Assembly: GCF_002633015.1 (NCBI RefSeq)
Contig: NZ_NSIU01000017.1
Location: forward strand, 1 to 45,627
Direction of reading: 5' to 3'
Origin: Sulfuricurvum sp. PD_MW2
Lineage (GTDB): Bacteria; Campylobacterota; Campylobacteria; Campylobacterales; Sulfurimonadaceae
DNA: 45,627 nucleotides
The position numbers and the translations under genes were made by a program. This document shows, in pieces, positions 1 through 63 of the stretch. Below the pieces are notes generated by a model, which saw only the letters and a list, made by a program, of their open reading frames with translations, was not told where the DNA came from and did no database searches. Positions within the stretch are counted from its first letter, which is position 1. Each line of letters begins with the position of its first letter.

Positions 1-63
1 CGGCGACAACCGAGATCTCCACTATCTTCTTCGTAGGCAGCGTCTGATGTTTATAAGAGACAG
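1..63 (+). other. Residual Illumina Nextera adapter (not genomic)
   Basis: Positions 1-22 match the end of the Illumina P5 primer with two substitutions (8 and 19). Positions 23-30 sit where the 8-base i5 index belongs and differ by one base from index 503 as I remember it. Positions 31-44 match the Nextera read-1 segment with one substitution (35). Positions 45-63 match the Tn5 mosaic end with two substitutions (45 and 51), ending in ATAAGAGACAG. The alignment is gap-free over the whole stretch, which is the order expected of a Nextera library end. Genomic sequence therefore starts near position 64. Confidence 0.96.

Follow-up and report, generated by a model that had tools for sequence, protein, structure and literature searches.

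Untrimmed Nextera adapter sequence at the start of a Sulfuricurvum contig

What is the origin of the first 63 bases of this contig, which adjoin the 3' side of a minus-strand diguanylate cyclase gene and are open to translation from it? The window, i.e., the whole stretch of DNA that was analysed, is the entire contig C72 (45,627 bases) of a 2.26-Mb draft in 76 contigs, listed as 99.99% complete. On the plus strand the window starts with CGGCGACAACCGAGATCTCCAC-TATCTTCT-TCGTAGGCAGCGTC-TGATGTTTATAAGAGACAG, after which the minus-strand GGDEF gene is reached. Bases 1-63 thus occupy the extreme tip of the contig. The original prediction was that they consist of Nextera adapter parts, in order and without gaps, with five substitutions in the 55 non-index bases and a near-match to a standard i5 index.

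In the outward direction, from base 63 to base 1, the sequence is CTGTCTCTTATAAACATCAGACGCTGCCTACGAAGAAGATAGTGGAGATCTCGGTTGTCGCCG. When this is aligned with the construct CTGTCTCTTATACACATCT-GACGCTGCCGACGA-[i5]-GTGTAGATCTCGGTGGTCGCCG, 50 of the 55 non-index bases are identical and no gap is needed, as had been predicted, and the count of five substitutions is exact. The mosaic end, the Read-1 arm, the index and P5 follow one another in this order outward from the genomic insert. Compared with the Nextera S503 construct (P5, i5 TATCCTCT and Read-1 arm), the five substitutions are joined by a single mismatch in the eight index bases, which bears out the near-match to a standard index; the next closest index after S503 has three mismatches. 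Of random 8-mers, 0.7% differ by no more than one base from at least one of 18 i5 indices. The initial seven bases of P5 (AATGATA) are absent from bases 1-63, because the contig ends there. With equal base frequencies, 50 or more identities among 55 bases would arise by chance at a given position with a probability of about 7e-25, and in separate pattern scans for the P5 part and the mosaic-end part the number of chance matches expected in the window, as estimated from shuffles, is 0. When the P5 part is searched for in the whole genome, it is found in a single place, which is the start of this contig (bases 1-22). The sequence of P5, the S503 i5 and the Read-1 arm is printed in PMC8225968, and that of the Read-1 arm with the mosaic end has been published in PMC3906532. 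It is virtually certain that bases 1-63 are an untrimmed Nextera P5/i5/Read-1 adapter read-through ending in the mosaic end, and not genome. The positions of the adapter parts, of the gene that they adjoin and of the tails at other contig ends are collected in Table 1.

Table 1. Adapter parts, adjoining gene and adapter tails on further contigs of the draft
Feature	Contig	Positions	Strand	Locus	Remarks
Illumina P5 flow-cell sequence CGGCGACCACCGAGATCTACAC without its first 7 bases	C72	1-22	+		2 substitutions; pattern search
i5 index TATCTTCT	C72	23-30	+		1 mismatch to Nextera S503 (TATCCTCT)
Nextera Read-1 transposon arm TCGTCGGCAGCGTC	C72	31-44	+		1 substitution; published arm, PMC3906532
Tn5 mosaic end AGATGTGTATAAGAGACAG	C72	45-63	+		2 substitutions
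Artefactual 3' end of predicted ORF, codons N-C-L-L and stop	C72	51-65	-		adapter except for 64-65
Diguanylate cyclase (GGDEF) gene, genuine part, cut at contig end	C72	64-950	-		Pfam GGDEF, 4.8e-41
C2 end tail	C2	39225-39250		L109	26 nt, CTGgCTCTTATACAaATCTtACGCTt, mosaic end and Read-1 arm; score 18
C3 start tail	C3	1-29		L034	29 nt, CTGTCTCTTATcaACAcTTaACGCT...; score 13
C36 start tail	C36	1-15		L067	15 nt, partial mosaic end; score 9
C65 end tail	C65	131205-131287		L172	carries CTTATACACATCT, begins 83 nt from end; probable

Consider now what the adapter does to the gene. Mechanically translated, the ORF at 51-950 gives 299 amino acids and ends RAKNCLL-stop. Of the last 15 bases of this ORF only 64 and 65, with which the N codon opens, are genuine, and the remainder is adapter. 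The orthologues most similar to the GGDEF protein, at 60-76% protein identity, come from four members of the genus and a Sulfuricurvum MAG; they share ALYRAK or close variants of it and continue for some 10-13 further residues, with NEGKNRTILED in G004, NQGKNKTVLVH in G011 and KEGKNRTVLLDE in Sulfuricurvum sp. NZ_JAEMQA010000027.1, each followed by stop. In a MAFFT alignment, meaningful up to the junction and pairing adapter bases with unrelated downstream sequence beyond it, the window's gene tracks its orthologues as far as GCA AAA AA and then becomes CTGTCTCTTATA, which is the mosaic end. At the orthologous place, G004, G011, G001, G009, G010 and NZ_JAEMQA010000027.1 have gene sequence and no adapter, and an exact scan for the junction among 84,980 species genomes, a collection in which the window's own record may not be included, gave no match. 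Had these 63 bases been seen next to the GGDEF gene in another assembly or genome, this would, as named beforehand, have spoken against an adapter; no such case turned up in the orthologues or the species genomes. The C-terminal end of the 299-residue diguanylate cyclase (CLL-stop) is artefactual and encoded by the adapter, and, judged from the orthologous sequences, the gene in C72 lacks about its last 10-13 codons. The C-terminus of the diguanylate cyclase annotated at 51-950 should be marked as incomplete.

In G004 the GGDEF gene is preceded by an EAL-HDOD gene and followed by a TonB-dependent receptor gene; in the present draft the EAL-HDOD and GGDEF genes lie in the window at 51-2284 on the minus strand, and a receptor gene opens contig C66 (19-2028).

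The gene that comes after GGDEF, both in G004 and in NZ_JAEMQA010000027.1, is this TonB-dependent receptor, at a distance from the last shared codon of 38 nt in the former and 71 nt in the latter. Here its orthologue, 69-71% identical, is found on C66, from base 19 onward. The position of the receptor at the start of C66, taken together with the gene order in the relatives, makes C66 the likely true neighbour of C72. From the gene order of these two relatives we infer both the join and the size of the gap: C72 and C66 probably adjoin each other across a gap of roughly 20-50 bases, and the adapter probably occupies the place of these missing bases. The two contigs can be treated as likely neighbours.

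Each of the draft's 152 contig ends was surveyed over its outermost 400 bases: both Nextera read-through sequences were slid along it, with 200 shuffled adapters as control. The start of C72 reaches a score of 45, and degraded Nextera tails are found also at the end of C2 and at the starts of C3 and C36. These four tails stand at the very tip of their contigs, with scores that were unreached by the 200 shuffled adapters at the respective end. The score of C36, taken alone, falls within the range of the best shuffle scores for the whole set of ends (up to 9 and 11), so that its case depends on where it lies, at the tip, and on the tails found elsewhere. The end of C65 probably carries a degraded Nextera tail as well: after the adapter motif come 64 G-poor bases, with a single G, that have a weak likeness to the P7 side (18 of 39 bases match, shuffle p 0.0012). 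The end of C76 and the start of C2 are weakly adapter-like, with scores no higher than those of the best shuffled adapters over all ends, and were not counted. The pattern of errors varies between the tails, which fits with what is expected from separate poor read tails. The tails of C2, C3, C36 and C65 also need trimming.

The likeliest course of events by which this sequence came to stand at the tip of C72 is as follows. When a library fragment has an insert shorter than the read, read 2 would run into the P5-side adapter, and a low-quality adapter tail could then be left untrimmed. It is proposed that the assembler extended C72 with such a tail at a coverage gap, there being no genomic reads to span it. 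To what was found directly (the identity and order of the adapter parts, their position at the contig end, the other tails, the continuation of the gene in relatives and the likely neighbour C66), this account adds that the source would be read 2, that one or a few reads would be involved, that trimming would have failed and that coverage would have been low at the break. Five substitutions in 55 bases and one in the index exceed what is expected of a consensus with good support; an error rate of about 10% fits with the low-quality 3' tail of a read, and favours one or a few poor tails over a deep consensus.

According to PMC3906532, it is exactly this sequence that must be removed from read 2 when a Nextera fragment has a short insert, and the read-2 read-through of Nextera and NexteraXT libraries described there, with CTGTCTCTTATACACATCTGACGCTGCCGACGA as the sequence to be trimmed, is like the present one in sequence, order and orientation; the difference is that here the adapter survives in an assembled contig, and with about 10% substitutions. 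In public microbial assemblies, adapter remnants concentrate at contig ends and hinder joining (PMC11536531). The adapter of C72 is like this contamination in its position at an extreme contig end and in keeping neighbouring contigs apart, whereas that study concerned exact matches to the TruSeq universal adapter, and the present case is a Nextera adapter with substitutions. An exact 33-base search would miss the adapter of C72; having substitutions, tails of this kind can escape adapter screens that require exact matches.

The same adapter could also have arisen from an adapter dimer or from chimeric ligation in the library, rather than from read-through of a short insert. This is improbable, as a simple read-2 read-through would give precisely the order and orientation seen here, and neither a second insert nor a doubled adapter is seen. 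Far less probable still is an insertion, in the GGDEF gene, of a natural transposon end of the IS50/Tn5 type: the 19 bases that adjoin the gene do resemble a Tn5 end, but they differ from the engineered mosaic end at 2 positions and from the natural outside and inside ends of IS50 at 5 and 6, and behind them come the Read-1 arm, the i5 index and P5, which no transposon is known to carry, all at the tip of a contig. A genuine insertion of an engineered Tn5 adapter in the DNA of the sequenced strain, as opposed to a read artefact, is just as remote. That the 63 bases are genomic and resemble an adapter by chance, as their six substitutions (index included) and an ORF that stays open into them and closes with a stop might suggest, is the least credible reading of all and is rejected in view of the match probability, the shuffles, the similar tails at four other contig ends, one of them only probable, and the orthologues, which are without these bases. 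The adapter read-through at the start of C72 is an ordinary technical artefact of a known kind, with no biology in it. Its relevance is for data cleaning only, and bases 1-63 should be masked or trimmed, a recommendation already made in the original prediction, which stands with the adapter identity confirmed.

Elsewhere in the phylum, the 33-base P5-side read-through occurs with at most 3 mismatches in 6 of 397 genomes, the present one included. In three cases, L207 (G176:C11:9-41), L206 (G091:C1:104-136) and L204 (G120:C11:20740-20772), it lies no further than about 160 bases from a contig end, and in L204 and L206 it is followed by decayed P5 sequence and an A-run. In two others, L203 (G134:C1:1354772-1354804) and L205 (G101:C1:1582556-1582588), decayed adapter and A-run lie in the interior of large contigs; there are 1,500 bases to either side, free of N, and this suggests that sequence was there joined across an adapter-bearing read tail.
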